The position numbers and the translations under genes are program-made. The notes beneath the pieces were generated by a model. The model ran no database searches, was not told the DNA's origin, and worked only from the letters and a program-made list of their open reading frames with translations. A stretch of 64,000 bases of DNA, taken from positions 3,738,344 through 3,802,343 of the forward strand of contig NZ_JXCJ01000001.1 in NCBI RefSeq assembly GCF_000832015.1, in the 5' to 3' direction. This document shows, piece by piece, positions 29,434-47,392 of the stretch (within the stretch, counting starts at the first letter, position 1; the number at the start of each line of letters is the position of its first letter). This DNA is from Gilvimarinus agarilyticus. Its GTDB lineage: Bacteria; Pseudomonadota; Gammaproteobacteria; Pseudomonadales; Cellvibrionaceae.

Positions 29434-29494
29434 AAGGCATTAAGAAACCAACGTCGGCGGTTAGCCCGCCGCCTATATTTAATAGAGGCATAGT

Positions 29495-30720: not shown

Positions 30721-30731
30721 TGTCGCCCGCG

Positions 30732-31031
30732 CTACTTAGATGATTTCATCAAGCGGGACACCAACCAACCGGCCGCAAAGGCAACACCCACGGTGACTAA
30801 CGGACGTTCGCGTACGAAGTTTTCAGCCTGGTCGCCGTACTCACGCGCACGAACCTTGCCTTCCTCCACTTTTAAGCGCGCCTCTGCCGCTCCTGCCGAG
30901 CCGATAGAGCCCACGGCGTCGTACACACTTGAGGTTGCTTGCTTAACTTGATCCATTGCTTCAGACATGGAAACTCCTTCTGCATTGGTTGAGTTACGGG
31001 TTTTATCAGACTTACTGCTTTGTGTAGCCAT
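30732..31031 (-). CDS. DUF883 (YqjD/ElaB) family membrane-anchored protein
   Basis: A 99-residue protein starting at 31031 behind AGAGGAA. The amphipathic helical body (MDQVKQATSSVYDAVGS, KVEEGKVRAREYGDQAENFV) leads into the family's C-terminal signature RERPLVTVGVAFAAGWLVSRL, a single membrane helix. E. coli homologues bind ribosomes and anchor them to the membrane in stationary phase. First gene of the yqjDEK-like unit; no promoter of its own was recognised, so it may be read through from the DUF1328 gene 126 bases upstream. Confidence 0.82.
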   Translation of the reverse strand: MATQSSKSDKTRNSTNAEGVSMSEAMDQVKQATSSVYDAVGSIGSAGAAEARLKVEEGKVRAREYGDQAENFVRERPLVTVGVAFAAGWLVSRLMKSSK

Positions 31032-31157
31032 GGTAAATTCCTCTAATCCTTGATCTTCCAAGTTGATGTTGACGCGGCGCCTCGCTAACTATTGTGCAGA
31101 GGGCCGCAGCTGTCAAATACCTTCAATCACATTTGCTTGCTAACGGCTAGTCGACCG

Positions 31158-31319
31158 TTATGGTCGGCGACGCCCGAAAATAAGCGACAATACAAACAAC
31201 ACTAAAAATATAACAAACAGGATTTGTGCAATACCTGATAGCGTGCCTGCGAGCCCACCAAAACCTAATACAGCGGCCACTAATGCGATAATAAAAAATA
31301 AAATTGCGTAACCTAACAT
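31158..31319 (-). CDS. DUF1328 (YtjA) family small membrane protein
   Basis: A 53-residue, almost wholly hydrophobic protein ([19 protein letters not shown] at the start, ending FGRRRP) with two membrane helices around the [13 protein letters not shown] turn. This is the DUF1328/YtjA signature, widespread in bacteria and stress-linked, with no known biochemical role. GGAGAA precedes the ATG. A -24/-12 candidate lies 71-86 bases upstream. Confidence 0.88.
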
Positions 31320-31389
31320 AGCTATTCTCCTTTGCCGTTTATGCCGCCATCATCGCGTTTGCGCTTTTGGCGACTTACGGTATTTATAA

Positions 31390-31405
31390 CTCAAGCAGCG
31401 TGCCA
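31390..31405 (-). promoter_or_regulatory. Sigma-54 promoter candidate before DUF1328 gene
   Basis: The minus strand reads TGGCACGCTGCTTGAG: a perfect TGGCACG half and TTG in place, but GA instead of the -12 GC. Predicted start about 60 bases before the DUF1328 gene. Confidence 0.45.
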
Positions 31406-31529
31406 ACTTTGCAAAACCTTGCTATCACTGGGCTGCGACGAATCCATGTAAAAATCATTGTGGTTTTGGTTAGTATTTTGGTCGCTTTGCTTGAAACATC
31501 TGCACGTAAAAGCGCAGGTTTTACACATG

Positions 31530-31564
31530 CCTTTCGCACTAAGTACGCCGAAGTGTGCGAAAGG
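31530..31564. repeat. Inverted repeat CCTTTCGCAC / GTGCGAAAGG
   Basis: Two 10-base arms pair perfectly with a 15-base spacer, just past the end of the AI-2E transporter gene. It lacks a T run for termination. It sits about 125-175 bases upstream of the -24/-12 candidate at 31390, where an NtrC-type activator would be expected to bind. Confidence 0.45.
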
Positions 31565-31568
31565 TTTA

Positions 31569-32723
31569 TCACCGCTGCGTGTTAGAACTTGCTGCACCAG
31601 ACGCTGGCGGCTCATCGGCGTCCGTCTCATACCCGCCATCGAGCACACCGACCCAGCGACCCATTAGATCAAGGTGAGTGGCCAGTATGCGACCGCAAAC
31701 CAGCAGAGGAATGGCGATCAACATCCCCACGGCGCCCCACAGCCACCCCCAGACAAACATCCAGAGCACAACCAGCAGCGGATTCATATTGAATCGCTGG
31801 CCCAATAGGGTCGGGGTAATAAACTGACATTCGATAAAGTTAAGAATTAAGAACGCCCCGGGAACCATAACCACAGCCTCCCAGGAGGAGAACTCCATAA
31901 ACCCGACCCCCGTCAGGATAACCGCCAACAACATCGGCCCTACATAAGGTGCAAAATTCAGTAAGGTCGCCAGCGCCCCCCACAATAGAGCGTCTTCAAC
32001 TCCTAATAGCTTCATTGCTCCCGCCGTCGCCAAGCCCAGGCCGACATTGATCAAGGAGATCACGAGCACATAGCGGGAGATATCATTCTGAATCGCCTGA
32101 AAAACCACGACGGTCGATTTTTTTGCACTAAACGTACTGCGCGCCTTGACCACGTGGCGCATCAACTCCTCGCCAAACACCAGAAAAAAATAGGTAATAA
32201 CCACGACCGCCCCAACCTGTATAGCAAACAGCGCGGTGGTCTCCGCCAGTACCGACACGGCCGAATGCAAGGTCGAATCCATAGCCTTCTCTATAGAGTC
32301 GCCGCTGTCGCCCGTGGCCGAACCTGACATTACGCTTTCTTTGATTGCCGTAAATGACTTCGACATCTCTCCCATTTCGTTCGCCAGCTTATCGCTCAAG
32401 GTCGGAATAACCTTTAGCCAACGTGTGGCGGGCTCAACCAACAAACCAAATAGATAGCTGATCCCTCCCAGCAGCGCGCCAATAACCATTAATGCCGCGG
32501 CGGGCTTAGGAATATAGATCACCCCTAACGCTCGCACCAAAGGGCTTGAAAACAGCGCAATGAAAGCAGCAACACAAACGGGCACTAGCAAAGTCTGCGA
32601 AAAATATAAGGTATATAGCACCGCCAGGATGGCCAACAGCTTTAGTGCCAGCAAAGCGCCCCGGCTTATTAGGTGGTCACTAGCGGCTGCTACCGCAAGG
32701 TTAGATTTAGGGGTTGTCGACAT
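31569..32723 (-). CDS. AI-2E family transporter
   Basis: A 384-residue inner-membrane protein of the AI-2E/PerM family. Hydrophobic segments lie near residues 25-60, 75-95, 165-190, 215-240, 245-300 and 310-350. The family signature is in the second half: GLGLATAGAMKLLGVEDALLWG, NFAPYVGPM and QRFNMNPLLVVLWMFVWGWLWGAVGMLIAIPLL. Members export autoinducer-2 in some bacteria or act as cation/proton antiporters in others; which applies here is unknown. It lies among stress genes, with a weak -24/-12 candidate at 32807. Confidence 0.88.
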   Translation of the reverse strand: MSTTPKSNLAVAAASDHLISRGALLALKLLAILAVLYTLYFSQTLLVPVCVAAFIALFSSPLVRALGVIYIPKPAAALMVIGALLGGISYLFGLLVEPATRWLKVIPTLSDKLANEMGEMSKSFTAIKESVMSGSATGDSGDSIEKAMDSTLHSAVSVLAETTALFAIQVGAVVVITYFFLVFGEELMRHVVKARSTFSAKKSTVVVFQAIQNDISRYVLVISLINVGLGLATAGAMKLLGVEDALLWGALATLLNFAPYVGPMLLAVILTGVGFMEFSSWEAVVMVPGAFLILNFIECQFITPTLLGQRFNMNPLLVVLWMFVWGWLWGAVGMLIAIPLLVCGRILATHLDLMGRWVGVLDGGYETDADEPPASGAASSNTQR

Positions 32724-32806
32724 ATTTTTAGCCTCTGCTAGTGCCCTAGTGGTAGTAACAAGCGCATGCCTGCCCGATTAGGCTTACACGCAAAGGCGTC
32801 AGATAC

Positions 32807-32822
32807 TGCGAAAACTATACCA
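32807..32822 (-). promoter_or_regulatory. Weak sigma-54 promoter candidate before AI-2E gene
   Basis: TGGTATAGTTTTCGCA keeps GG and GC 10 bases apart but lacks the CAC of the -24 element. Predicted start about 73 bases before the transporter gene. Confidence 0.3.
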
Positions 32823-33062
32823 GCTCGTTAATAAGCTGATGCACCGTAACAAAGGCCTTTATGCGCAATAACCGTAACTCAGGGGCGGAAGGGTCTGTAC
32901 ATTTTTCACAAATTTGAAAATTAAGCCTTTGCAATCACCTCTCGGCAAGCAAGGCCAACTCGCGCATAACCAGAGTAAGAAAGCTCCGACACCCGCCCTA
33001 TCAAGGCAGCTCTGCCGATGAGCGGGAGCTTCGCCGTCTCCAATATTCTGGTGTTAGGCCGC

Positions 33063-33078
33063 TGGCACGATTTACGCA
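33063..33078 (+). promoter_or_regulatory. Sigma-54 promoter candidate before BON gene
   Basis: TGGCACGATTTACGCA has the full TGGCACG -24 element and GC 10 bases downstream. Predicted start about 57 bases before the BON-domain gene. Confidence 0.55.
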
Positions 33079-33144
33079 TAAGCGGACACAACATTGAGTT
33101 TTTGAACCTTACAAGTTGTCACTTTATTTGCGGAGTACTACACG

Positions 33145-33816
33145 ATGAACACCCCGGAAAGACATTCACTGCAACACATGATCGCACCTGTTACCTCCGT
33201 TGCGCTTGTCACCGCTTTCTCAGTCTCGACCGCGATCGGTGCAAACAGCAAAAGTGCTTACGCAGACAAACCCTCTGCCAAAGACTACTGGGCGGAGTTC
33301 AGCCAAGACAGCGGGCAGAGCTGGGAGAGCAGTCAGGAGGCGTTTCGCGACGGCTGGATTGAAGGACGCCTAGATGCCGCCCTGTCGCTTAACGAGCATT
33401 TAAATACGTTTGAGCTACAGGCTAACGTATCCGCCTCAACAGCAACGCTGACCGGCGCCGTGGCCAACGAGATCGACAAAGAGCTGGCCACTAATGTGGC
33501 CATGGGTGTTGAGGGAATTGAAAAGGTCGATAACCAACTAACCGTTGACCAGAGCCTCACCCACGACAGCGACGAAGAATCGGGCCGAAATTTTGCTGAA
33601 TACCTGTCGGATATGTCGACGACCGCCGCCATCAAAACGGAGCTACTGGCCTCGTCTAACATCAACGGCATTGGCATTGATGTCGACACCTACCACAACG
33701 AGGTGACGCTGACCGGCTCAGTGGCGAGCGAAGCTCAGCTAAAACTCGCTGAAGCCCTTGTTACAAAACACCCGGACATAGACAAAGTACACAATAAGCT
33801 TAGTGTTGCGCCGTAA
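33145..33816 (+). CDS. Exported BON-domain protein (OsmY-like)
   Basis: A 223-residue periplasmic protein with two BON domains. A signal-like N terminus precedes a linker, then BON 1 (residues 82-135, with VSASTATLTGAVANEIDKELATNVAMGVEGIEKVDN) and BON 2 (156-223, with DVDTYHNEVTLTGSVASEAQLKLAEAL and DKVHNKLSV). BON domains bind membranes or phospholipid; OsmY is induced by osmotic stress. A -24/-12 promoter candidate lies upstream. The ferritin-like gene follows by 50 bases and is probably on the same mRNA. Confidence 0.88.
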   Translation: MNTPERHSLQHMIAPVTSVALVTAFSVSTAIGANSKSAYADKPSAKDYWAEFSQDSGQSWESSQEAFRDGWIEGRLDAALSLNEHLNTFELQANVSASTATLTGAVANEIDKELATNVAMGVEGIEKVDNQLTVDQSLTHDSDEESGRNFAEYLSDMSTTAAIKTELLASSNINGIGIDVDTYHNEVTLTGSVASEAQLKLAEALVTKHPDIDKVHNKLSVAP

Positions 33817-33866
33817 CAGAACTAGCGCGCTAACCCGTTAACCGTGATCCACCAAGAGGTACACAA

Positions 33867-34412
33867 ATGACAAACACAGCCTTTATCAAAGACCTGGACA
33901 ACCGCCGCGCTCAGGCGCGCAAGCACATGATGAACGGTGCCGTTACCGAGGACTTTACTCAAGACAAAGATCAGATTATCGAGCTGCTTAACGAGGCGCT
34001 CGCCACCGAACTGATTTGCGTATTACGCTACAAAGCACATTACTACACCGCGCACGGACGCGGCGCTAAAGTCGCATCGGCCGAGTTTTGGGAGCACGCG
34101 CAAGAGGAGCAACAACACGCCGACCAATTGGCCGAACGTATTGCGCAACTCGGTGGCACACCCGAGATGAACCCAGACGAGCTAACCAAGCGCTCGCACA
34201 GCGATTACCACACAGGTGGCGATACGCTTGAAATGCTACAAGAGGATTTGGTGGCCGAGCGTATTGCCATTAGCAGCTATCGCGAGATGATTGGCTTTGT
34301 GGGCGAAAAAGACCCGACCACTCGCCGCATCCTGGAGGACCTGTTAGCGCAAGAGGAAGAGCACGCAGACGATCTGGTCGAACTGATTGAGCATATTGAC
34401 GGTGAGCGGTGA
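33867..34412 (+). CDS. Ferritin-like diiron protein (bacterioferritin/DPS group)
   Basis: A 181-residue four-helix protein with two E-x-x-H di-iron half sites. The first is in NEALATELICVLRYK and EHAQEEQQHADQLAERI. The second is in VAERIAISSYREMI and LAQEEEHADDLVEL. It resembles the bacterioferritin-like family found in many environmental bacteria, often in stress clusters. It probably oxidises and binds iron or detoxifies peroxide. AGAGGT precedes the ATG. A hairpin terminator follows immediately. Confidence 0.87.
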   Translation: MTNTAFIKDLDNRRAQARKHMMNGAVTEDFTQDKDQIIELLNEALATELICVLRYKAHYYTAHGRGAKVASAEFWEHAQEEQQHADQLAERIAQLGGTPEMNPDELTKRSHSDYHTGGDTLEMLQEDLVAERIAISSYREMIGFVGEKDPTTRRILEDLLAQEEEHADDLVELIEHIDGER

Positions 34413-34418
34413 ATGAGG

Positions 34419-34454
34419 AGCGGTGAACGGAACCTATATTCGCTCACCGCTTTT
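34419..34454 (+). terminator. Terminator after ferritin-like gene
   Basis: AGCGGTGAACG and CGCTCACCGCT pair with one G-T wobble around a short loop, followed by TTTT. It lies between convergent genes. Confidence 0.65.
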
Positions 34455-34461
34455 GATAACC

Positions 34462-35259
34462 TTACTGACGGGACTTTTTCACCAAATCGTAAGCCGCCTG
34501 AATTTCTTGCGAGCGTTCAGTGGCGGCTTTAACGGCATCTTCAGGCAAACCTTGCCCGGCAAGTTTATCCGGGTGGTACTGGCTCATTAACTTACGGTAA
34601 GCCTTTTTCACCTCCGCATCTGAAGCGCTGGACTCAACACCAAGTGCTTCATAAGCGCTGTTTAAGTCGCCTCCTCGGGGCTGTGCGCCACCGCCGGACT
34701 GATACCCGCCTCCGGCCGAGAACGAGTGCTGCGCTTTAATCATGCGCAGCAATTGCTCAAAGGCAAAACCACTGATTCCCAACGCGGCGGCTACCTCGCG
34801 CAACACACGCTCTTCGCTGGCATCAAACTGGCCATCTGCCAAAGCCAGATTCACCAGATACGACAACAGCATTTGCACCAGATTACGGTTGTTTCCGCAG
34901 CGGGTGCGAAACTGTGCGAAAGTCGCCTCAGGATTAAAGTCGGGCTGAGAGCCCTCTTTGAATAAATTGATGGCTACCCGGCGCTGGTCGGCAGACAAGC
35001 CCATCTGAGTCATGAGTTGCTCGGTTTGAGCGATTTCGTTCTCACTCACACGGCCATCGGCCTTAGCGAGATAACCCAGCAACGTAAAGGTTGTCTCAAA
35101 AAAGCACTGGCGGATGATCGCCTGCTGCTCCGGGGACGCCATACGGGCTTGATTGCGGTAGCCTTTGTCGAACATGTGGCCGATAAACACCCCCAATAAC
35201 GCCAACAAGGGGCCCCCGACCACAAAACCTAAGACACCGCCAATTATCTTACCTATCAT
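34462..35259 (-). CDS. djlA: DjlA-type membrane-anchored J-domain co-chaperone
   Basis: A 265-residue inner-membrane co-chaperone for DnaK. The N-terminal membrane segment is GVLGFVVGGPLLALLGVFIG. A TerB-like helical domain follows (about 50-170, with YLAKADGRVSENEIAQTE and NLALADGQFDASEERVL). The J domain at residues 200-263 carries the HPDK tripeptide (SQYHPDKLAGQG) that stimulates DnaK ATP hydrolysis. The three-part layout and length match E. coli DjlA, which affects capsule synthesis and envelope stress. Divergent from the ebo operon. Confidence 0.93.
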   Translation of the reverse strand: MIGKIIGGVLGFVVGGPLLALLGVFIGHMFDKGYRNQARMASPEQQAIIRQCFFETTFTLLGYLAKADGRVSENEIAQTEQLMTQMGLSADQRRVAINLFKEGSQPDFNPEATFAQFRTRCGNNRNLVQMLLSYLVNLALADGQFDASEERVLREVAAALGISGFAFEQLLRMIKAQHSFSAGGGYQSGGGAQPRGGDLNSAYEALGVESSASDAEVKKAYRKLMSQYHPDKLAGQGLPEDAVKAATERSQEIQAAYDLVKKSRQ

Positions 35260-35388
35260 GCTTCAACCTGCTCCAATACCACTTGTAAGCCGTAAGCTTA
35301 CCATTAATAACAGCGTAAACGTGTGCAACAAATCTTTACAGACCGCGCCCCGCTTGGCGCAACCACGGCCCGCCTGCACGCGGCCAGC

Positions 35389-35417
35389 TCGATAAGCCCA
35401 AGGCGATTCCGTATAAT
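35389..35417 (+). promoter_or_regulatory. Sigma-70 promoter candidate for ebo operon
   Basis: A perfect TATAAT (35412-35417) with TCGATA 17 bases upstream (four of six -35 matches). Predicted start about 30 bases before eboA. Confidence 0.55.
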
Positions 35418-35452
35418 CGCTAAACGCGCCCCTAATAACATAGCGAAACTCT

Positions 35453-36364
35453 ATGAACGAACAAATAACAGCAACACTGGCGCAGCTGCTCGAGCCACGC
35501 CTGAGCGACGCCGCCCTCGATTTTTGGCAAAAAGCCCAGCGGGAAGTAGCCGCCGGTGCCGAGCGCTCGCGCTTTTCAGCGCTTATATCAATGGCCAGCC
35601 GCCACGCCAAGCGCGTACCGCTGGAGCCCACTAAAACCGAATTAGCCGCCTGCCAAAAGGCGGTAACCGGGTGGTCTCCCCAGCGCTGGAACCTGCTAGA
35701 GCTGCTGCGGGTAGCCTTGATTTGCACCCGTGAAGACGTCACTGAGCCGAACTTTGCAGAGGATTTTGAGTCTTTATTCGTCTATGCCGACGAGGGCGAA
35801 ACCTGCGCGCTATACCGCTCGCTTGCTCTATTGCCGGCAGCCGAACGGTTTGTCTGGCGCGCCGGCGAGGGCTGCCGCTCAAACATGCTCAGCGTATTCA
35901 GCGCCATTGCCCTGGATAACCCCTACCCGGTAAAGCATTTTGACGATACCGGCTGGAACCAGCTGGTGATTAAAGCGCTATTTTTAGAGCTGCCTCTTCA
36001 CCGGGTTATCGGCCTGGATGAGCGCCGCAGCGCGGAGCTAACACGCATTGCGCTCGATCTGGCCGACGAGCGCCGCAGCGCCGGGCGCGCCATTGCCCAC
36101 GATTTATGGTTGTGCCTGGACGCCAACCACGCCGAGCGCAGCCGCGCTCTGGCCGAGCAGTTGTGGCCCGAGGCCACGCCCCTAACCCGCTCGGCCATTG
36201 TGCTTGGGCTGGCGCGGGCCGCGCAGCACACAGAGGTACAGCGCCTGGCTGAAACCGAGTCAGACATCGACGTCGCACACGCTATAGATGCGGCGCTGGG
36301 CGGTAAGTTTGATCAACAACAATTTGCCCGCCTAATCACAAATAAAAGCGAGACAGAGCTATGA
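35453..36364 (+). CDS. eboA: EboA family protein
   Basis: A 303-residue, largely helical, cytosolic protein of unknown biochemistry, assigned to EboA by its position at the head of a complete ebo operon and by general resemblance. Segments such as WSPQRWNLLELLRVALI, LYRSLALLPAAERFVWRAGEGCRSN and DNPYPVKHFDDTGWNQLVIKALFLELPLHRVIGLD form the conserved core. Ebo operons help move secondary-metabolite precursors to the periplasm in cyanobacteria and make a nematode repellent in Pseudomonas. The stop overlaps the next start (ATGA). Confidence 0.85.
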   Translation: MNEQITATLAQLLEPRLSDAALDFWQKAQREVAAGAERSRFSALISMASRHAKRVPLEPTKTELAACQKAVTGWSPQRWNLLELLRVALICTREDVTEPNFAEDFESLFVYADEGETCALYRSLALLPAAERFVWRAGEGCRSNMLSVFSAIALDNPYPVKHFDDTGWNQLVIKALFLELPLHRVIGLDERRSAELTRIALDLADERRSAGRAIAHDLWLCLDANHAERSRALAEQLWPEATPLTRSAIVLGLARAAQHTEVQRLAETESDIDVAHAIDAALGGKFDQQQFARLITNKSETEL

Positions 36365-37257
36365 GATTTTTTGACCCGCACATTCATATGGCCAGCCGCA
36401 CGACGGATGACTACCAAAATATGGCCGCGGCCGGCATCCGCGCCATTATCGAGCCCGCCTTTTGGATGGGCCAGCCGCGCACCAACGTGGGCAGCTTTAT
36501 CGACTACTTTTCAAGCCTGGTGGGTTGGGAGCGTTTTCGCGCCTCGCAATTTGGCATAGCCCACTACTGCGCCATCGGCATTAACTCTAAAGAGGCCAAC
36601 AACGAGGGGCTGGCCCGTGAGGCTCTGGAGATTTTACCCAACTTTGCATTAAAAGAAGGGGTGGTCGCCATCGGCGAAATCGGCTATGACGAAATCACTC
36701 CCGCTGAAGAGTTTATCTATCAGGCACAGCTTAAATTTGCCGTCGAGCACGACATGGTGGTTATGGTGCACTCGCCCCACCGCGATAAAAAGAACGGGAT
36801 TATTCGCAGTATCGATGTAGCGCTTGAGATGGGCGTACCACCGCACAAGCTAGTGATCGACCACAACAACGAAGAAACCGTGCAAAGCGTATTGGACGCC
36901 GGCGCCTGGGCCGCCTTTACCATTTACCCCAACACCAAAATGGGCTCCGAGCGCATGGTCGAGATCGTGCGCCAGTACGGCCCCGAGCGCATCATCGTCG
37001 ATAGCTCGGCCGACTGGGGCGTGAGCGACCCGCTGTCGGTACCTAAAACCGCCCATTTAATGAAAGAACGCGGCATCGACCCTGTCGCCATCGAGCTTAC
37101 CTGCTGGGGCAATGCGCTCGAGGCCTACGCCCAATCCGGGCAAATCGATGTGGACGAGCTAATGCAAGATGCGGTGATCGACCAGTCGCTATCCTACAGC
37201 GACAACTCAGTGCTACGCGGGCAACAACCGCGCATAGACGAGCCAGTAAAAAATTAA
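36361..37257 (+). CDS. eboB: TatD-like metal-dependent hydrolase (EboB)
   Basis: A 298-residue amidohydrolase-superfamily TIM barrel related to TatD. Metal ligands are in place: FDPHIHM (His7, His9), GEIGYDE (Glu106), MVHSPH (His137 and His140), VIDHNNE (His168) and VDSSADWG (Asp214 or 218). TatD proteins are Mg-dependent nucleases or hydrolases, but ebo members form a separate group whose substrate is unknown. It overlaps eboA by four bases and precedes eboD by 17. Confidence 0.9.
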   Translation: MRFFDPHIHMASRTTDDYQNMAAAGIRAIIEPAFWMGQPRTNVGSFIDYFSSLVGWERFRASQFGIAHYCAIGINSKEANNEGLAREALEILPNFALKEGVVAIGEIGYDEITPAEEFIYQAQLKFAVEHDMVVMVHSPHRDKKNGIIRSIDVALEMGVPPHKLVIDHNNEETVQSVLDAGAWAAFTIYPNTKMGSERMVEIVRQYGPERIIVDSSADWGVSDPLSVPKTAHLMKERGIDPVAIELTCWGNALEAYAQSGQIDVDELMQDAVIDQSLSYSDNSVLRGQQPRIDEPVKN

Positions 37258-37274
37258 CGATAAGAGCGTGCCAC

Positions 37275-38420
37275 GTGTTGCAGATTGATCAGAGTTTTAC
37301 CATGACCCATCAGTTTCCGGTGTGTTTTGACCGGGACACCCTCGCGCCCGAGAGCCCGCTATTGCGGGACATTCTTGAGCGCGCCGGGCCCGGCCCACAC
37401 CGGGTACTGCCGGTTATCGATCAAAACGTACTGCAGGCTCACCCTGATATCGTCGACCGTTTACAGCTATACGCCGACACCCACGGCGAGGCGTTGGAGC
37501 TGATCGAGCCTCCCTTAATTGTCCGTGGTGGCGAGATTAGCAAATCCGACCCAACCGAGGTGGACGAGTTTTATCAGCGCACGCAAACGCAAAATATTGA
37601 CCGCCACAGCTTTGCCTTAGTCATTGGCGGCGGTGCGGTGATCGATGCCATTGGTTACGCGGCGGCAACCGCTCACCGCGGCATCCGGTTAATTCGTATG
37701 CCCACCACGGTGCTCGCACAAAACGACGCGGGCATCGGGGTAAAAAACGCGATCAACTATCGCGGCCGCAAAAATTATTTGGGCACGTTTACCGCCCCGT
37801 TTGCGGTAATTAACGATTTTGATTTTTTAGCCAGCCTGCCCTCGCGCGATCGTGTATCGGGCATTGCCGAAGCCATCAAAGTAGCGCTAATACGTGACGG
37901 TGACTTTTTTAACTGGCTGCACGATAACCGCCAGGGGCTGGCTGCGTTTAGCGCCGAGCCCACCGAATACATGATTATCCGCTGCGCCGAGCTGCACTTA
38001 AACCACATTCGCACCAGCGGCGATCCGTTTGAACAAGGCAGCGCCCGGCCACTGGATTTTGGTCACTGGTGCGCGCACCGGTTAGAGGAAATCTCGGCCA
38101 GTGAGCTGCGCCATGGTGAGGCCGTCGCCATTGGCATCGCGCTCGACTCGATCTACTCCTACCTTAAAGGCATGATTACGCTCGAGTCGCTCGGCCGTAT
38201 TCGCGCCACACTCGAGGGAGTCGGTTTTAGCCTCACCCACACCGCGCTCGAATCACTCGACATCCACAAAGCGCTGGAAGATTTTCGCGAGCACTTAGGC
38301 GGCAGACTGTGCATCACCCTGCTCACTCGCGAAGGCGCCGCCCAGGAGGTTGACGAAATTGACCACCGTTTAATGGAACGCTGCCGCCAGTACTTACTGG
38401 AGGAAACATGGCCGAGCTGA
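37275..38420 (+). CDS. eboD: 3-dehydroquinate synthase-like cyclase (EboD)
   Basis: A 381-residue sugar-phosphate cyclase homologue. NAD-binding VIGGGAVIDAIGY (residues 117-127) and metal ligands Glu199 (GIAEAIKVALI), His264 (LDFGHWCAHRLE) and His280 (LRHGEAVAIGIALDS) are retained, so it is probably catalytically active. The shikimate-pathway enzyme AroB would be encoded elsewhere; ebo versions are a separate branch that likely cyclises another sugar phosphate. The GTG start is preferred because IDQSFTMTHQFPVCF looks like family sequence; ATG at 37302 is the alternative. The end overlaps eboE by 13 bases. Confidence 0.92.
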   Translation: MLQIDQSFTMTHQFPVCFDRDTLAPESPLLRDILERAGPGPHRVLPVIDQNVLQAHPDIVDRLQLYADTHGEALELIEPPLIVRGGEISKSDPTEVDEFYQRTQTQNIDRHSFALVIGGGAVIDAIGYAAATAHRGIRLIRMPTTVLAQNDAGIGVKNAINYRGRKNYLGTFTAPFAVINDFDFLASLPSRDRVSGIAEAIKVALIRDGDFFNWLHDNRQGLAAFSAEPTEYMIIRCAELHLNHIRTSGDPFEQGSARPLDFGHWCAHRLEEISASELRHGEAVAIGIALDSIYSYLKGMITLESLGRIRATLEGVGFSLTHTALESLDIHKALEDFREHLGGRLCITLLTREGAAQEVDEIDHRLMERCRQYLLEETWPS

Positions 38421-39517
38421 CCTACTGCAGCAACATTCACCCGGGCGAGCATTGGGCGGATGTCATGCACAACCTGGACAGCCACGCCCTGGAAGTTAAA
38501 GCCCGCGTCAACCCCACCGGCGCTTTCCCTCTAGGGCTGCGCATTGCCCAGCAGGCGGTGTTGGAGGCGGACGACAACGCCATCGCCGAGTTTCGCGCCT
38601 GGTGTAAGCGGCACAATTGCTACCTGCTTACCATTAACGGCTTTCCCTACGGCACCTTTCACAATCGCCGGGTAAAAGAGAATGTGTATTTACCCGATTG
38701 GCGCAGCGCTGAACGGGCGAGTTACAGTAAACGCTTAGGTGATTTAGCGGTAAAGCTTGAGCCGGACGCCAAGCGCTTGTCGATCTCGACGGTTCCCATT
38801 GCCTTTAAACCAGCGTTTGATCCCAACGCCGAAGATGAGTGGGAGCTCGCCTGCGGCCACCTGCGCGATGTGGCCGAGCACTATTATCAGCTCTATCAAC
38901 AAACCGGTGTGTTGCTGGTGCTTGCGCTCGAGCCGGAGCCAATGTGCGTACTAGAAACTACCGATGAAGCCATCCAGTTTTTTAAGAGGCTAAATTTACC
39001 CGAGCATTTACGCCGCCACATAGGCCTGTGCTTTGACTGCTGCCACCAGGCCGTAGAGTTTGAAAGTGCCAGCGATTGCCTACAACGAATTAATGAGGCG
39101 GGCATTACCATTGGCAAAGTGCAAGTCTCGAGCGCCCTTAAAGCCACCGGCGATGAGATAAAAAAACTGCTGGAATTTGACGAGCCCGTTTATTTGCACC
39201 AAGCGGTGGCCCGTAGTGAGCACACCAATCAATTGCACCGCTTTACCGACCTCACTGACTTTAAACAGGCTTTGCAACAAGGGCAGCACTTTGACGAGTG
39301 CCGGGTGCACTTTCATATCCCGATTTTTCTTAAGCACCTGGGCGAGTGCGGCACCACGCAGGATTTTTTGCGCGAGCTTTTACCTCAACTGGATAGCCAG
39401 CTACCGCTCGAGGTAGAAACCTACAGTTTTGCGGCCATCCCCGAAAAGTTACGCACCGATACCGTGAGCGAGAGCATTGCCCGAGAACTCTTGTGGGTTA
39501 AAACGCTACTAGACTAG
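38408..39517 (+). CDS. eboE: Xylose-isomerase-like TIM-barrel protein (EboE)
   Basis: A 369-residue TIM barrel of the sugar isomerase/AP-endonuclease-2 fold. Likely metal or substrate segments are LALEPEPMCVLE, GLCFDCCHQAVEFE, KVQVSSALKA and CRVHFHIPIFL, with Glu, His and Asp at the barrel mouth. GGAGG lies inside eboD just before the ATG, so translation is coupled. It presumably acts on the product of EboD, but the reaction is not known. Confidence 0.9.
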   Translation: MAELTYCSNIHPGEHWADVMHNLDSHALEVKARVNPTGAFPLGLRIAQQAVLEADDNAIAEFRAWCKRHNCYLLTINGFPYGTFHNRRVKENVYLPDWRSAERASYSKRLGDLAVKLEPDAKRLSISTVPIAFKPAFDPNAEDEWELACGHLRDVAEHYYQLYQQTGVLLVLALEPEPMCVLETTDEAIQFFKRLNLPEHLRRHIGLCFDCCHQAVEFESASDCLQRINEAGITIGKVQVSSALKATGDEIKKLLEFDEPVYLHQAVARSEHTNQLHRFTDLTDFKQALQQGQHFDECRVHFHIPIFLKHLGECGTTQDFLRELLPQLDSQLPLEVETYSFAAIPEKLRTDTVSESIARELLWVKTLLD

Positions 39518-39552
39518 CGGCGCGCAACACCACCGAATAAACGAGGCCTAAT

Positions 39553-40962
39553 ATGCACAGAACCGTCGTTCTTAATGTGGTCGGACTTACCCGGGCACTG
39601 CTTGGGGAGCACACCCCCAACATCAATCAGCTCGCCGCCCGCAGCACCACGGTTAAACCCGTCACTCCGGCGGTCACTTGCTCGGCCCAGGCGACCTACT
39701 TAACCGGCAAGCAACCCAGCGAGCACGGAATTGTCGCCAACGGCTGGTACTTTCGCGAGCAAAATGAGGTGTGGCTGTGGCGCCAGAGCAACAAGCTGAT
39801 TCAGGCCCCCAAAATCTGGGATATGGCGCGGGCGCGCGATAACAGCTTTACCTGCAGCAACACCTTTTGGTGGTACGCCATGGCCACCGATGCCGACTAC
39901 ACCCTAACGCCCCGGCCTTTGTATTGCGCCGATGGCCGCAAGCTACCCGACTGTTACACCTACCCGCTTGAGCTGCGCGAGACACTGAGTAAAAAACTGG
40001 GCAAGTTTCCGCTGTTTAACTTTTGGGGGCCGGCCACCAGCATTAAGTCATCGCGCTGGATCGCCGACGCCGCCATGCATATCGAGGCAGAGCATCAACC
40101 GACCCTGCAACTGGTGTACCTACCGCACCTCGATTACATCTTGCAAAAAGTCGGGCCCGAAGGCGATATTGCGCAAGATTTAACTGAAATTGATGATTTG
40201 GTGGGCGAGTTACTCACCTATTTTAGCGAGCGCGGCTGCCGGGTGATGCTGTTATCCGAATACGGTATTGTGCCGGTCTCGCGGCCGGTGCACCCCAACC
40301 GAATTTTGCGCGATGCCGGTAAACTATCGCTAAAGGTGGACCTCGGACGAGAGTATCTAGACTTTCACACCAGCCGCGCCTTCGCCATGAGCGACCACCA
40401 GATCGCCCATATTTATGTACAGGCGCACGAGGATATTGCCGAGCTTAAAACGCTGTTTGGCAACACCGAAGGCGTAGCCAAAGTGCTAGAGGGCGCCGAA
40501 CGCGCCGAGTACGGCCTTGACCACGAGCGCGCCGGCGAATTAGTACTGCTAGCTGAGCCGGACAGCTGGTTTACGTACTACTACTGGCAAGATGACACCC
40601 GCGCGCCCGATTTTGCTCATCAGGTAGAGATCCATCGCAAGCCGGGGTTTGATCCGTGTGAGTTGTTTCTCGATCCAAAGCTAAAATTTCCCAAGCTAAA
40701 AGTCGCGCGCCGCTTAGCGCAAAAAAAGATGGGTATGCGCTACGTGCTGGATGTTATCTCTACCGACCCAATGCAAGTAAAAGGCTCGCACGGCATTTAC
40801 GATGGCACGGATTACTCGACGCCGGTACTGATGAGCACGCAAGCAAACTTGATCCCCGAGCATCAAATTCACGCCACCGATGTTTGCGATTTAATCTTGC
40901 AGCATATCTTTAGCGATGAGCCGCAAACAACACCGGAGTCCGAGCATGCCGCTGACGCTTAA
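39553..40962 (+). CDS. eboF: Alkaline-phosphatase-superfamily phosphodiesterase (EboF)
   Basis: A 469-residue member of the nucleotide pyrophosphatase/phosphodiesterase group. The nucleophile region is VTPAVTCSAQATYLTGKQPSEHGI, probably with Thr or Ser as nucleophile. Metal segments include YLPHLDYILQKVGPEG, LLSEYGIV and the later KGSHGIYDGTDYSTPVL. No signal peptide is present, so it is cytosolic. It may release or transfer a phosphate-linked group during maturation of the ebo product. Its last 17 bases overlap the prenyltransferase gene. Confidence 0.9.
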   Translation: MHRTVVLNVVGLTRALLGEHTPNINQLAARSTTVKPVTPAVTCSAQATYLTGKQPSEHGIVANGWYFREQNEVWLWRQSNKLIQAPKIWDMARARDNSFTCSNTFWWYAMATDADYTLTPRPLYCADGRKLPDCYTYPLELRETLSKKLGKFPLFNFWGPATSIKSSRWIADAAMHIEAEHQPTLQLVYLPHLDYILQKVGPEGDIAQDLTEIDDLVGELLTYFSERGCRVMLLSEYGIVPVSRPVHPNRILRDAGKLSLKVDLGREYLDFHTSRAFAMSDHQIAHIYVQAHEDIAELKTLFGNTEGVAKVLEGAERAEYGLDHERAGELVLLAEPDSWFTYYYWQDDTRAPDFAHQVEIHRKPGFDPCELFLDPKLKFPKLKVARRLAQKKMGMRYVLDVISTDPMQVKGSHGIYDGTDYSTPVLMSTQANLIPEHQIHATDVCDLILQHIFSDEPQTTPESEHAADA

Positions 40963-41668
40963 CACTGCCCTTAAACTTGGCCGCGTAAGCAACCTGCCCA
41001 CGGTATGGATGAACGCCGTAGCCAGTATCGCGCTCACCAGCACCGCACTAGGCACTGGGTTTCCGGTGCTGGCCAGCGGTTTAATTTTACTGGCGCTGTC
41101 GTGCTTTTACGCCGGCGGCATGAGCTTTAACGATTACTGCGACCGCCACTGGGATGCCGCACATCAAACCTTCCGCCCTATCCCTAACGGCGACATCAAA
41201 GCTCGCACTGTACTGACCTTGTCACTGGCGCTGTTTAGCGCGGGGCTGGCACTGTTATGGTTTGCACCCAGCAGTCGCGGTATTCTGGCTGCGGCCGGCT
41301 TACTGGCCCTTATTATTGCCTACGATGTGTGGCACAAGCGGCACTGGGCCACCGTGGCCTTAATGGCCTGCACTCGCTTAGGGGTTTATATGGTCGCGGC
41401 CTTCGCACTATCGGGCAGCGCCACTCAAGCAGTGGTTATATTGGGGTTGATTCAGTGTGGTTATACGTTACTGGTTACCGTCGTGGCGCGGCTCGAAAAT
41501 AAACTCGCCAATGGCTATGGGTTTGCGGTCATACCCTGGATGATTGCTCTGATGGGTTTGGTCGATGGCATTGCGTTGGCAGTGCTGCTCTCGCCTATCT
41601 GGCTGCTGGCGGGTATCGCCACGGTGGTATTAACGCGTTGGGGGCAAAAGTACGTGCGCGGTGACTAA
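40946..41668 (+). CDS. eboC: UbiA-family prenyltransferase (EboC)
   Basis: A 240-residue polytopic membrane prenyltransferase with about seven to eight helices. The first Asp motif is NDYCDRHWD (Asn62, Asp63, Asp66, Asp70) and the second, shorter one is DVWHKRH; these bind Mg and the prenyl diphosphate. The start at 40946 (MPLTLNTALKLGR) has GGAGT upstream; the longer frame runs back into eboF. It is likely to attach an isoprenoid to the cyclised sugar-like product, giving a membrane lipid. It closes the operon, an order (A-B-D-E-F-C) with the prenyltransferase last. Confidence 0.92.
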   Translation: MPLTLNTALKLGRVSNLPTVWMNAVASIALTSTALGTGFPVLASGLILLALSCFYAGGMSFNDYCDRHWDAAHQTFRPIPNGDIKARTVLTLSLALFSAGLALLWFAPSSRGILAAAGLLALIIAYDVWHKRHWATVALMACTRLGVYMVAAFALSGSATQAVVILGLIQCGYTLLVTVVARLENKLANGYGFAVIPWMIALMGLVDGIALAVLLSPIWLLAGIATVVLTRWGQKYVRGD

Positions 41669-41680
41669 AACTCGAACCGT

Positions 41681-41715
41681 CACTGCCGGGCCGTGGTAAC
41701 ACCCGCCCGGCAGTG
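41681..41715. terminator. Hairpin between ebo operon and YidB-like gene
   Basis: CACTGCCGGGC and GCCCGGCAGTG pair perfectly over 11 bases between convergent genes. No T run follows, so it may act with Rho or only protect the ends. Confidence 0.5.
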
Positions 41716-41725
41716 GCACACCTAA

Positions 41726-42148
41726 CTAAAATAAGCCTTTTAATAAAGAGCCCGCGCCGGACGAGACTACGCTGCTAAGCAAGTCGCCACCCTCGCTACT
41801 TTTATCCAGTAGTTTAGGCAACATGCCCGCTAAACCTTCGGCGGCAGTGTCGGTTTCCATACCAAGCTGGCTGCCAAATTGCGCTACTTTGTCTTCACCC
41901 AGCAAACGCTTCACATCTTGCGAGCCTAACGATTGGTTGGCACCATCGCCCAACCAAGACTGCGCAGCAGCGGCCAAACCGCCACCTTGCTGGGCCACCA
42001 TGCTTAACAGGGCCGGTATATCCAGATCGCCCCCCTCGGTGGGTAGCAACGATTTTAAGCCGCCCATAACTTTCTGTAAGTCTAGCCCTGCACCTTTACC
42101 GCCCAGCTGATTTAAGAATATGTCAGCGGCCATATTTAATAAGCTCAT
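41726..42148 (-). CDS. DUF937 (YidB-like) protein
   Basis: A 140-residue helical protein of the DUF937/YidB family, marked by DIFLNQLGGKGAGLDLQKVMGGLKSLL, LSMVAQQGGGLAAAAQSWLGDGANQSLG and FGSQLGMETDTAAEGLAGMLPKLLD. The function is unknown. GAGG precedes the ATG. It lies 20 bases after the next gene on the same strand. Confidence 0.85.
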   Translation of the reverse strand: MSLLNMAADIFLNQLGGKGAGLDLQKVMGGLKSLLPTEGGDLDIPALLSMVAQQGGGLAAAAQSWLGDGANQSLGSQDVKRLLGEDKVAQFGSQLGMETDTAAEGLAGMLPKLLDKSSEGGDLLSSVVSSGAGSLLKGLF

Positions 42149-42168
42149 CGTTTTGCTACCTCAGGTAA

Positions 42169-42414
42169 TTACAAGCTGGCGATTTCTTTATCAAACAGAG
42201 TCGCGGCGGCATCGGTAAACGGAAAATGCGTGCGAATGTACTGCAGGGTTTTTAACTCTGTGTCGGTAACGCCGGGGCCATCTTTGGCGGATTTCATTAA
42301 ATCCAGCACCTCGTCTTTTGACAAGTTACCCTCGTTGCGGCCGGTAGTGTGTTGCTTGGCCAGCTCCAGTAACTCTTTCTCGTAAGTTTCACCTTCAATT
42401 GTGACGTACGCCAT
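42169..42414 (-). CDS. Hypothetical small protein, 81 residues
   Basis: An 81-residue soluble protein I do not recognise. It is charged and mainly helical (EGETYEKELLELAKQHTTGRNE, SKDEVLDLMKSAKD, DTELKTLQYIRTHFPFTDAAATLFDKEI). The spacing of the helix pairs recalls a TerB- or EF-like bundle but no binding motif is visible. GAGGG precedes the ATG, and it is co-transcribed with the YidB-like gene. Confidence 0.7.
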   Translation of the reverse strand: MAYVTIEGETYEKELLELAKQHTTGRNEGNLSKDEVLDLMKSAKDGPGVTDTELKTLQYIRTHFPFTDAAATLFDKEIASL

Positions 42415-42572
42415 ATGCTTTCCCTCTATCTAATTCCTTTGGTTAGCTTCATTAAAGCCGTCAACGGCATCGTTAACCTATCGGCAACAATGCCACCGTT
42501 TTAGAGAATAGACCGCAATTGGCTAAACGGCCATTGCCTGTACTGTTTTTGCTATGACATTTTCATGACGCC

Positions 42573-44558
<1,986 letters not shown>

Positions 44559-44792
44559 CTACTCGCGACGCAACCGCATAGAGCTGTCGACGCCTGTGAC
44601 TCCTACCGGCCAAACAATAATTATATGGAATAGAAAATTAAAAAACCGAGAATTTCAGTAATTAAAAGGTAATTTTCATGCCAGTGCTGATGCTTTTTTG
44701 ATCTAAAGTGCTTATTTCTTTTACAATTTTTAACAAGGTCACAATTTAGCCTATCCATCGTTGACCCGGGCATAGGGTGACACGGCAGAATA

Positions 44793-44806
44793 AGACAACG
44801 TTGTCT
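44793..44806. promoter_or_regulatory. Perfect 14-base palindrome AGACAACGTTGTCT
   Basis: AGACAACGTTGTCT is its own reverse complement and sits about 170 bases before the chitinase start, just upstream of the structured leader. It is a likely operator for a dimeric regulator of the chitinase gene. Confidence 0.5.
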
Positions 44807-44813
44807 GACCAAG

Positions 44814-44899
44814 GACGCACAACCCCGTAACGGGGGCAACGCCGAAGAGTGCCATGTGTTGCTGCAGGATGAGTAATGCATGGCCAGCGGTTGTGTGTC
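44814..44899 (+). ncRNA. Structured 5' leader of chitinase mRNA (possible riboswitch)
   Basis: A closing helix pairs GACGCACAACC (44814-44824) with GGTTGTGTGTC (44889-44899): 11 pairs, one a G-U. Inside it lie a short hairpin around CCGTAACGG (44825-44833) and a 10-pair hairpin, GCCATGTGTT (44851-44860) with AGTAATGCATGGC pairing from 44875 to 44884. A conserved-looking single-stranded joiner (GGGCAACGCCGAAGAGT) lies between them. I cannot match it to a known class; a c-di-GMP (GEMM-I) switch was considered, but its hallmark segments are missing. Confidence 0.5.
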
Positions 44900-44972
44900 G
44901 AGCCCTGTTGGTGTTGGGAGCGATTTAAAGCAGCCGCCCCAAAAAACATAAACACGATAGCAGGGATACTCC

Positions 44973-47342
44973 ATGAAACTTATACACACGTTTAGCTTGT
45001 GCTCGGTAGCGGCGCTTGCCGCACACAGCGTACAGGCAACCGACTGCACCAATCTCGATAACTGGAACGCCCAGGCGGTTTATACCGGCGGCACGCAGGT
45101 GCAGCACAGCGGGCAGGCCTATCAGGCAAACTGGTGGACTCAGGGCAACGACCCCAGCACCAACTCCGGCCAATACCAGCAATGGTCTGCGCTCGGCGCT
45201 TGTGACGGCTCTGGCCCAAACAATAATCAGGCCCCGACGGCCAATATTAATGGCCCTTACAGTGGACTGCCCGGTAGTGCCATTGCGTTTGACAGCGCGG
45301 GCTCTAACGACCCGGATGGCAACATTGCCCGCTATGCGTGGGACTTTGGCGATGGCGCCAGCAGCACCCAGGCATCGCCCAGTCACAGCTACACCAACGA
45401 GGGTAGCTACAGCGTTACCCTCACCGTAACCGACAACGACGGCGCCAGCGCTACGGCCAGCACCAGCGCCGCTATCAGTGCCGACTCGGGTGAGCCCAGC
45501 GACTGTAACGCCGCCCTCTATAACGCCGGTACACAATACGCGGCGGGCGATTTGGTACAGAACGCCGGGCAAGTGTATCGCTGTGATATCGCCGGTTGGT
45601 GTTCATCATCGGCCAGCTGGGCCTACGAGCCGGGCAATGGCGCCCACTGGCAAGAGGCCTGGAGCCAAACCGATAGCTGCAGCGAGTCGGGCAATCTGGC
45701 TCCAACGGCTAATGCCAACGGGCCATACTCCGGCAGTGCCGGAAGTGCCATCACCTTTAGCAGCGCAGGCAGCAGTGACCCAGACGGTACGGTTAACGCC
45801 TACCTGTGGGAGTTTGGTGACAACAACACCAGCACCGAAGCAAACCCGTCGCACAGCTACGCCAATGCCGGTACCTACCAGGCGACTCTCACGGTTACTG
45901 ACAATCTCGGTGCAAACCACTCCACGACCGCCAATGTCACCGTGGTTATGGCCGATCAAAACCAACCCCCGGTAGCACAGGTTAATGGCCCCTTTACCAC
46001 GGAGGCCAACAGCAGCATTAGCCTTTCCAGCGCCGGAAGCTCGGACCCGGATGGCAACGTTGTCAGCTACGACTGGAGCTTTGGCGATGGCAACAGCAGC
46101 TCTCAGGCTAACCCCAGCCATAGTTACAGTAGCGACGGCCAATACACCGTCACCTTAACCGTTACCGACGACGAAGGCGCCACCGATAGCGTCACCACCA
46201 CGGTTACTGTGGGCACAGTGGATACCACTTACGGCGATAAAGTCATCGGTTACTTCACCAACTGGGGTGTGTACGATCGCAACTACCACGTTAAAAATAT
46301 CCACACCAGCGGCTCGGCCGAAAAGCTGACCCACATTGTCTACGCCTTTGGTAATGTGAAAAACGGCAAGTGTGTGGTAGGCGACGCCTACGCCGATTAC
46401 CAAAAAACCTACAGTGCGGCCGACAGTGTTGACGGTGTTGCCGATGTTTGGGGCACCAGCGAAGTGGATGGTAACTTCGGTCAGCTGCGCCGGCTAAAAG
46501 CCATGTACCCACAGATTAAAGTGGTGTGGTCGTTTGGTGGCTGGACCTGGTCCGGTGGTTTTGGCCAGGCAGCGGCTAACCCTCAGCAGTTTGCTCAGTC
46601 CTGTCACGATCTGGTCGAAGACCCGCGCTGGGCCGATGTGTTTGACGGTATCGACATCGATTGGGAGTACCCCAACGAGTGCGGCTTGAGCTGCGACAAC
46701 AGCGGTTTTAGCGGTTACCGCGATTTAATGCAGGCGCTGCGTCAGGAGTTTGGCCAAGACGCTTTGGTCACCTCGGCCATTGGCGCGGGCGAGGCCAAAA
46801 TCAACGCGGCCGATTATGGTGGTGCGGCTCAGTATCTGGATTTTTATATGCTCATGACCTACGACTTCTTCGGTGCGTGGGCCAAACAGGGCCCCACTGC
46901 ACCGCACTCACCGCTTTATACCTACGATGGCATTCCGCAGCAGGGGTTTACCACCAATCACGGTATTGAAGTACTTAAAAGCAAAGGGGTTCCCGCCGAG
47001 AAGATCATGCTGGGTATTGGTTTTTATGGTCGCGGCTGGACGGGCGTAACTCAGGCGACACCGGGCGGCACGGCCACCGGTGCGGCGAGCGGCACCTATG
47101 AAGCGGGCATTGAAGACTACAAGGTGCTTAAAAACACCTGCCCGGCTACCGGGGCAATTGCCGGCACAGCCTACGCCAAGTGTGGCAATAACTGGTGGAG
47201 CTACGACACCCCGGCAACCATTAACAGTAAGATGCAATACCTTAAACAACAAGGGTTAGGCGGCGCATTCTTCTGGGAGCTAAACGGCGATACCGCCAAT
47301 GGCGAGCTGATTAAAGCCATTGATAGCGGTTTGCAAAACTAA
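44973..47342 (+). CDS. Secreted multidomain GH18 chitinase
   Basis: A 789-residue secreted endochitinase. Signal peptide to about residue 23. CBM5/12 chitin-binding domain 1 (25-78, with WNAQAVYTGGTQVQHSGQAYQANWW), PKD 1 (88-170), CBM5/12 domain 2 (178-236), PKD 2 (243-325) and PKD 3 (331-413) follow. The catalytic GH18 barrel (420-789) has FDGIDIDWEYP, with catalytic Glu565 and Asp561/563, plus SFGGWTWSGGF and MTYDFFGAW. Surface-binding modules fit attack on insoluble chitin. The gene stands alone, with a palindrome and structured leader upstream and a strong terminator downstream. Confidence 0.95.
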   Translation: MKLIHTFSLCSVAALAAHSVQATDCTNLDNWNAQAVYTGGTQVQHSGQAYQANWWTQGNDPSTNSGQYQQWSALGACDGSGPNNNQAPTANINGPYSGLPGSAIAFDSAGSNDPDGNIARYAWDFGDGASSTQASPSHSYTNEGSYSVTLTVTDNDGASATASTSAAISADSGEPSDCNAALYNAGTQYAAGDLVQNAGQVYRCDIAGWCSSSASWAYEPGNGAHWQEAWSQTDSCSESGNLAPTANANGPYSGSAGSAITFSSAGSSDPDGTVNAYLWEFGDNNTSTEANPSHSYANAGTYQATLTVTDNLGANHSTTANVTVVMADQNQPPVAQVNGPFTTEANSSISLSSAGSSDPDGNVVSYDWSFGDGNSSSQANPSHSYSSDGQYTVTLTVTDDEGATDSVTTTVTVGTVDTTYGDKVIGYFTNWGVYDRNYHVKNIHTSGSAEKLTHIVYAFGNVKNGKCVVGDAYADYQKTYSAADSVDGVADVWGTSEVDGNFGQLRRLKAMYPQIKVVWSFGGWTWSGGFGQAAANPQQFAQSCHDLVEDPRWADVFDGIDIDWEYPNECGLSCDNSGFSGYRDLMQALRQEFGQDALVTSAIGAGEAKINAADYGGAAQYLDFYMLMTYDFFGAWAKQGPTAPHSPLYTYDGIPQQGFTTNHGIEVLKSKGVPAEKIMLGIGFYGRGWTGVTQATPGGTATGAASGTYEAGIEDYKVLKNTCPATGAIAGTAYAKCGNNWWSYDTPATINSKMQYLKQQGLGGAFFWELNGDTANGELIKAIDSGLQN

Positions 47343-47350
47343 AACCCATC

Positions 47351-47382: not shown

Positions 47383-47392
47383 ACCCGCTTAA

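Follow-up and report, generated by a model that had tools for sequence, protein, structure and literature searches.

Six open reading frames (ORFs) on the plus strand of the Gilvimarinus agarilyticus chromosome, in the order eboA-eboB-eboD-eboE-eboF-eboC (hereafter ABDEFC), fill positions 35453-41668 of the window, that is, of the whole 64,000-nucleotide stretch of DNA analysed here, which lies on a contig of a 4.19 Mb genome comprising two contigs. Neighbouring genes either share 4, 13 or 17 bp or stand 17 or 35 bp apart; all six proteins match the expected families, with EboB, EboD, EboF and EboC above Pfam cut-offs, and the same genes recur in the same order in 6/6 loci fetched from other Gilvimarinus genomes. 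The ORFs, the family scans and these loci confirm the original prediction of a complete six-gene ebo operon, made from the letters of the window; its presence on the Gilvimarinus chromosome is established and chance is excluded. Its gene content is that of an ordinary ebo operon, a further member of a type found in other bacteria and in algae. Three protein oddities (the short EboC, the changed zinc site of EboF and the non-shikimate EboD) could help to pin down the ebo product.

The span first proposed for the operon began at 35389, a non-coding position that precedes the start codon of eboA by 64 bp, and stands for the genes from 35453 onwards. A weak candidate promoter begins at that position (Table 1); such sigma-70-like hexamer pairs are not enriched, with 3 found against 4.6 expected from shuffled sequence. 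For eboC, the start at 40946 was chosen over 40916 on the basis of starts in relatives. No Rfam model matched above its gathering score within 30000-46000, and the G+C content of the operon (0.55-0.575) is inside the range of 29000-49000 (0.50-0.58). A gammaproteobacterial origin had been proposed, in agreement with the close named relatives, which are Gilvimarinus polysaccharolyticus, G. algae and G. gilvus.

Table 1. Genes of the ebo operon and a candidate upstream element, in window coordinates
Feature	Position	Strand	Description	Basis
possible sigma-70-type promoter (weak)	35389..35417	+	upstream of eboA	TCGATA-17-TATAAT, 10/12
eboA	35453..36364	+	303 aa, all-helical, function unassigned	NF035938 match
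eboB	36361..37257	+	298 aa, TatD/amidohydrolase-like metal hydrolase	PF01026
eboD	37275..38420	+	381 aa, predicted sugar phosphate cyclase, not dehydroquinate synthase	PF01761/PF24621, residues, tree
eboE	38408..39517	+	369 aa, xylose-isomerase-like TIM barrel	NF035939
eboF	39553..40962	+	469 aa, alkaline-phosphatase/NPP-superfamily, altered metal site	PF01663
eboC	40946..41668	+	240 aa, short UbiA-superfamily prenyltransferase, ends YVRGD	PF01040

Active sites and folds of the Ebo proteins

EboD exceeds the Pfam cut-offs of PF01761 and PF24621, and a separate AroB is encoded elsewhere in the genome, scoring 402.7 bits on the aroB model against 198.3 for EboD (cut-off 305). We compared the residues of EboD with those of the organism's own AroB, of 3okf and of the heptulose cyclase ValA (4p53), in a numbering that we take to be that of Aspergillus dehydroquinate synthase (DHQS); E194, H271 and H287 are presumably metal ligands, R130, K152, N162, H275 and also K356 phosphate-side residues, and K250 and R264 carboxylate binders. 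EboD keeps R130, D146, K152, N162, E194, K197, E260, H271, H275 and H287 but differs from DHQS in having H241 for K250, A257 for R264, D261 for N268 and E for K356, whereas the organism's own AroB and 3okf retain K250 and R264. In 78 aligned EboD rows (49 distinct sequences), position 250 is H in 78/78, 264 is A or S in 78/78, 268 is D in 78/78 and 356 is E, Q or A in 78/78, and the sugar phosphate cyclase features E194, H271, H287, R130, K152, N162 and H275 are likewise kept in 78/78. In another Pseudomonadales genus the first three sites read H (20/21), G (21/21) and D (20/21); one of these 21 rows, which departs from the others at several sites, seems to be broken or misaligned. When 45 distinct EboD sequences are placed in a tree with AroB, 3okf and ValA, EboD stands apart from AroB (100/98), but the branches to the outgroups are so long that no closest cyclase can be assigned. 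The catalytic residues of EboD, earlier described as retained, are thus kept at the metal ligands and most phosphate-side positions and changed at K250, R264, N268 and K356. Judged by these residues, EboD is a sugar phosphate cyclase that lacks the carboxylate grip typical of DHQS, and we read its predicted substrate as one without the carboxylate of 3-deoxy-D-arabino-heptulosonate 7-phosphate (DAHP).

EboF exceeds the Pfam cut-off of PF01663 with 192.6 bits. Its site was mapped by aligning a profile of 16 EboF sequences with Xanthomonas NPP (2gsn). The zinc ligands of the NPP family, which we take to be D54, D210, H214, D257, H258 and H363, and Thr90 beside them, occupy positions that fit the printed 2gsn residues at a constant offset of 39. 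Four of the six ligands are replaced in EboF (D54 by V10, H214 by Q198, D257 by E236, a conservative change, and H258 by Y237), and T90, D210 and H363 are kept as T42, D194 and H413. V, Q, E and Y stand at the four positions in 45/45 distinct EboF proteins across the gene orders sampled and in 17/17 usable rows from 21 further loci of another genus, 62 copies overall. Because the substitutes are themselves invariant, the site is changed rather than decaying. Position 8, two residues ahead of V10, carries N or D and may be a shifted zinc ligand, and the other invariant residues (H192, D281, H282, H286, H324 and H361) could form a new site. With four of six zinc ligands replaced, the label phosphodiesterase is doubtful, and the proposal that EboF modifies a cyclitol is weakened.

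EboC is recognised by PF01040 (55.3 bits, cut-off 34.2). Its score on the NCBI model prenyl_rel_EboC (NF035940; 69.8 bits, cut-off 250) is lower than that on SCO3242_trans (87.8 bits, cut-off 260), and it reaches neither cut-off. An EboC of DECABF type (119.3) and another of Pseudomonadales type (84.2) likewise fall below the NF035940 cut-off, and one of ABCDEF type passes it (393.2). Database labels for ebo genes may be incomplete or wrong: the NF035940 cut-off misses these three EboCs, and NF004852/PRK06203 names EboD 3-dehydroquinate synthase. The AlphaFold2 model of EboC (mean predicted local distance difference test score (pLDDT) 93.2) has eight membrane-length helices, and its best PDB fold in Foldseek is the archaeal lipid synthase 6m31 (E 4.3e-5, template modelling (TM) score 0.65 by query, root-mean-square deviation 8.0), on which the predicted structure is UbiA-like but loosely superposed. 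A second Asp-rich motif and nine helices are, we assume, typical of the UbiA superfamily rather than defining. The first Asp-rich motif (N62, D63, D66 and D70) is invariant in 20 aligned EboC proteins, and R182xE184 replaces the second in short and long EboC alike; of the catalytic residues said to be retained in EboC, therefore, those of the first motif are present and R182xE184 holds the place of the second.

Each of the 35 EboE-positive genomes of the family Cellvibrionaceae has a match to EboC close to EboE. In 19/35 this match extends to the end of the short model (in one, G031, in two pieces); in 16/35 it stops at position 186-236 of 241, and the open frames are 294-388 aa long. Short EboC proteins also occur in Burkholderiaceae and in four Myxococcota/Desulfuromonadaceae loci with partly changed gene order, and short length goes with a C-terminal [V/I][R/K]GD in 22/22 named loci in which eboC was found; tblastn did not find eboC in 8 of the 30 named loci fetched (L061, L062 and L064-L069). 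A broken gene is ruled out by this recurrent length and ending and by the constraint on the gene described below. C-terminal truncation was first suspected and then replaced by internal hairpin loss: MAFFT places the ~60 missing residues between R182xE184 and the last two helices, and in a profile comparison (29 short and 15 long tails) the last hairpin of long EboC is matched by the short tail (P 2.9e-6) and the hairpin before it is not (P 0.07), the pairwise form of the test being weak (279/435 pairs in favour). These alignments suggest that the short (~240 aa) subfamily has probably lost one internal membrane hairpin. No literature on the short form was found, as judged by titles and abstract starts, and neither it nor the altered EboF site is mentioned in the passages of PMC5133447, PMC6282210 and PMC9235831 that were compared.

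The three remaining proteins retain conserved polar sites. EboA scores 145.8 bits on the NF035938 domain (cut-off 50), which supports EboA and not the EboG variant, and misses the stricter EboA_family cut-off (188.5, 320). Its AlphaFold2 model (pLDDT 92.8) consists of helices only and has no PDB fold match at E<=0.001. R50, R86, D113, E116, R142, Q170, K174, R191, E206 and R212 are unchanged in 37 aligned EboA proteins and, among 14 further rows (from 21 loci, of which 14 were usable), in all 10 with letters at these positions, and W79, N144 and R207 vary in that further Pseudomonadales genus. These charged and polar residues would fit a ligand site better than a scaffold; the best fold matches, insignificant ones, are helical-repeat proteins, which leaves room for a scaffold of the tetratricopeptide repeat (TPR) type. 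EboB exceeds the Pfam cut-off of PF01026 (42.8 bits) but reaches only 29.4 bits on the TatD-family model TIGR00010 (cut-off 206), and its nearest solved sequence is 3guw (AF_1765, E 1.3e-21). Taking the TatD/amidohydrolase metal site to be HxH, E, H, H and D, the corresponding H7, H9, E106, H137, H168 and D218 are present in at least 95% of 40 EboB proteins, as had been predicted for its catalytic residues. EboE scores 416 bits on the equivalog model NF035939 (cut-off 250), with E175, E177, D210, H213 and H264 in 57/57 proteins and E335 and E337 in at least 95%.

Distribution and neighbourhood of ebo

All six ebo genes are under purifying selection: the ratio of non-synonymous to synonymous differences (pN/pS) against six genomes is 0.04-0.46, compared with 0.12-0.29 for the control gene DjlA. 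EboE scores above its cut-off in 7/8 genomes of the genus, in 35/144 of the family (those seven included) and in 2/398 of a phylum sample, one of the two being the genome of the window. DjlA lies upstream of ebo in 6/6 other Gilvimarinus loci, and the Dps-like, BON and AI-2E genes are kept in 5/6. The only genus genome without EboE, G006, has otherwise the same neighbourhood; after its DjlA, 342 bp on, stand two lipoprotein genes, and its 19.5 kb stretch holds no match to ebo genes. These two lipoprotein genes adjoin eboC in L034 and L039, lie 0.7-4 kb beyond it in L035, L037 and L038 and are missing near ebo in the window and L036. As the whole set is missing from the same neighbourhood in G006, the operon was gained or lost there as a unit.

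The order ABDEFC, with short EboC, occurs in 25 loci, the window included (eboC is broken in one, L047); the other orders in the loci fetched are DECABF, DCABEF and ABCDEF, with EboC of 288-318 aa, eboA not being found in L074, nor eboA and eboB in L080. Four ebo gene orders thus exist inside one family, Cellvibrionaceae. In the EboD tree, ABDEFC forms one group (94/83) and DECABF another (98/100), DCABEF appears in two places and ABCDEF is weakly placed; Cellvibrionaceae may, on this phylogeny, have gained ebo more than once. The DECABF-type operons of L072 and L087-L089 are flanked by shared genes, which in L087 are by Pfam DUF1552, a DUF1587/1588/1592/1595 cytochrome-type protein and Lcl_C.

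Outside the genus, none of the 11 other window genes around ebo has a match in the flanks (~4-7 kb) of five ABDEFC loci, an absence that fits a self-sufficient ebo unit. No scytonemin-type gene had been noticed beside the operon, and none was recognised in Pfam scans of 27 other window proteins, although no search was aimed at the scytonemin genes themselves. PF12902 is absent from 8/8 Gilvimarinus genomes and the window's own genome has no VioB-like match; the one weak match in the genus (E 3.7e-7) is in G004, on a contig other than that of ebo. A VioB-like partner in Gilvimarinus was rejected on these results.

Two other ebo lineages, which differ in gene order and EboC type, both adjoin VioB-like genes. 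In Burkholderiaceae, genes with a VioB-like N-domain and PF12902-type genes stand beside ABDEFC in 8/8 loci of seven genomes (L050-L056 and L063; tblastn with L052 proteins), with VioB-like genes on both sides in L050, L052 and L053. The L052 proteins score 190 and 170.8 bits on PF12902 and 46.2 and 21.8 bits on the VioB model (cut-off 1250), on which one L055 gene has no match. In the Pseudomonadales genus mentioned above, where EboE occurs in 37/298 genomes, DCABEF is followed by a VioB-like gene in 21/21 loci (L098 and 20/20 further ones, L104-L123); the L098 protein scores 35 bits on the same model, and PF12902 was not seen by Pfam among five scanned L098 neighbours, EboC and a dehydrogenase aside. 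This recurrence suggests that an indole-type pathway is paired with ebo in other lineages; in the literature, ebo also accompanies scytonemin, an indole pigment (PMC6282210).

Other gene groups of the window lie farther off. What we take to be an aryl-polyene/xanthomonadin-like cluster occupies 56894-63981 on the minus strand, near the window end and 15 kb from ebo, with two PRK09116 ketosynthases, FabG2, an ApeP-like dehydratase, a third ketosynthase and a tryptophan-halogenase-like flavoprotein. In 6/8 genus genomes, ebo and an aryl-polyene-like ketosynthase share a contig, ~11-21 kb apart; in G003 the two are on separate contigs, and ebo is missing from G006. Since the ebo flanks of 10 other family genomes contain no ketosynthase (E<=1e-20), a functional link was rejected and the proximity is read as genus-level synteny. 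Closer to ebo are a pectate-lyase-like protein with a long Pro-Glu repeat (42573-44504, minus strand) and, next to it, a GH18 chitinase (44973-47342), which carries three PKD domains, and a GH10 enzyme (47393-49351).

Role of the ebo product and comparison with known systems

The interpretation that we prefer, and regard as possible rather than probable, is that this is a stand-alone ebo operon, complete in itself as a pathway to a prenylated membrane helper lipid, probably of the cyclitol type. EboD would use sedoheptulose 7-phosphate or a similar ketose phosphate and make a cyclitol-like ring, which EboB, EboE and EboA would reshape. EboC, embedded in the membrane and of a UbiA fold supported by both sequence and model, would attach a prenyl chain. 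EboF would act on a ligand that bears phosphate, using chemistry different from that of a classical two-zinc phosphodiesterase, or would only bind it. As a small prenylated head-group lipid, the product would remain in the membrane and assist there in moving or finishing other, often aromatic, metabolites. Because no partner pathway is recognised next to ebo in Gilvimarinus, this role would be generic and not tied to one co-encoded metabolite. In support, the EboC relative Ubi-297 transfers farnesyl to small acceptors in vitro (PMC9235831). In Nostoc, ebo knockouts (eboD not among them) all stall at one cytoplasmic intermediate, and the authors favour an ancillary ebo product such as a prenylated carrier (PMC6282210).

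Several observations weigh against a cyclitol-type helper lipid. In sequence, the solved structures closest to EboD are dehydroquinate synthases (6lk2, E 2.6e-41), behind which the heptulose cyclase ValA ranks (4p53, E 7.3e-34), and the residue pattern of EboD differs from that of ValA too, which has M, R, D and K at positions 250, 264, 268 and 356, thus keeping R264 and K356, and P for H275. To our knowledge, no product or enzyme activity has been reported for any ABDEFC operon. VioB-like neighbours elsewhere might indicate that ebo serves an indole pathway and has no generic role. The only EboC-type enzyme tested used quinolines, not cyclitols (PMC9235831).

The last two points lead to the strongest rival, which we nevertheless consider rather unlikely: EboC farnesylates a quinoline or indole acceptor, the prenylated aromatic is itself the product, and the other Ebo proteins supply or trim the acceptor. 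The named relative of the VioB-like genes found at all loci of the two lineages above presumably joins indole-3-pyruvate imines. Ubi-297, an EboC of Flavobacteria, farnesylates 8-hydroxyquinoline-2-carboxylic acid in vitro (PMC9235831), and expression of the EDB cluster in Escherichia coli gave indoles, according to a review (PMC9655573). However, the genome of the window has neither PF12902 nor a VioB-like gene, the function of the VioB-like genes is unsure because their scores on the VioB model are weak or nil, the acceptor of the 240-aa EboC may differ from that of the 299-aa Ubi-297, and EboD is left unexplained.

We judge it unlikely that small aromatics are translocated by a membrane complex of the Ebo proteins, as proposed for the scytonemin monomer, with enzyme folds recruited for transport. 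Nostoc knockouts do hold the monomer in the cytoplasm (PMC6282210), and the loss of most zinc ligands from EboF is what a recruited non-enzyme might show; yet EboB, EboD and EboE keep metal- and substrate-type residues that a pure transport scaffold would not need, and none of the six proteins matches a transporter family. That AroB, a TatD nuclease and UbiA are merely adjacent housekeeping genes is highly improbable and was rejected: NCBI PRK06203 would indeed label EboD 3-dehydroquinate synthase (525 bits, cut-off 333), a point that also counts against our preferred interpretation, but the true AroB and two other UbiA-family genes lie elsewhere in the genome, EboD stands in its own clade with its own residues, EboB falls far below the TatD-family cut-off and ABDEFC recurs across 25 loci.

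A bolder version of the helper-lipid proposal, to which we give little credence, would make ABDEFC operons a distinct version of the pathway, in which the hairpin-deleted, eight-helix EboC has a more open membrane side and takes another prenyl substrate, longer or already head-grouped. EboF would not be a zinc phosphodiesterase in any ebo operon; its alkaline-phosphatase fold would instead have been put to use in transferring or carrying a phosphorylated intermediate, and with a catalytic EboA these proteins would build a new class of prenylated cyclitol lipid, a general helper in moving aromatic metabolites.

The Gilvimarinus copy has no recognised partner pathway, so that a lipid comparison could show the ebo product free of other pathways, in a genus where seven of eight genomes carry ebo and the eighth lacks it in an otherwise matching neighbourhood. 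The choice of assays can be guided by the altered residues of the three proteins: ketose phosphates in preference to DAHP for EboD, no presumption of zinc phosphodiesterase activity for EboF, and prenyl chain preference of the short against the long form for EboC.

A library search found no literature joining Gilvimarinus with ebo, but the operon has close known counterparts. Yurchenko et al. 2016 (PMC5133447) list the order ABDEFC for the same six genes and propose an isoprenoid-cyclitol product by the same logic, so that the interpretation offered with the original prediction is that of the literature; the isoprenoid-cyclitol, lipid-carrier and EboC-farnesylation ideas have all been published previously (PMC5133447, PMC6282210, PMC9235831). 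The EDB cluster of Pseudomonas fluorescens NZI7 is described with a full ebo set, like that of Gilvimarinus (PMC6282210, PMC9655573). In the scytonemin operon of Nostoc (Klicki et al. 2018, PMC6282210), homologues of EboA, B, C, E and F are reported, with EboD nearby, whereas in Gilvimarinus a single operon holds the full set of six and no partner pathway is recognised; the Nostoc EboC is described with seven transmembrane domains, compared with eight membrane helices in the model of the window EboC. The DCABEF loci of the other Pseudomonadales genus differ from Gilvimarinus in gene order and in their VioB-like neighbour, and Gilvimarinus in its short EboC. Finally, Ubi-297 is, like the window EboC, an EboC-type UbiA enzyme in an ebo cluster, but has ten modelled helices to its eight (PMC9235831).

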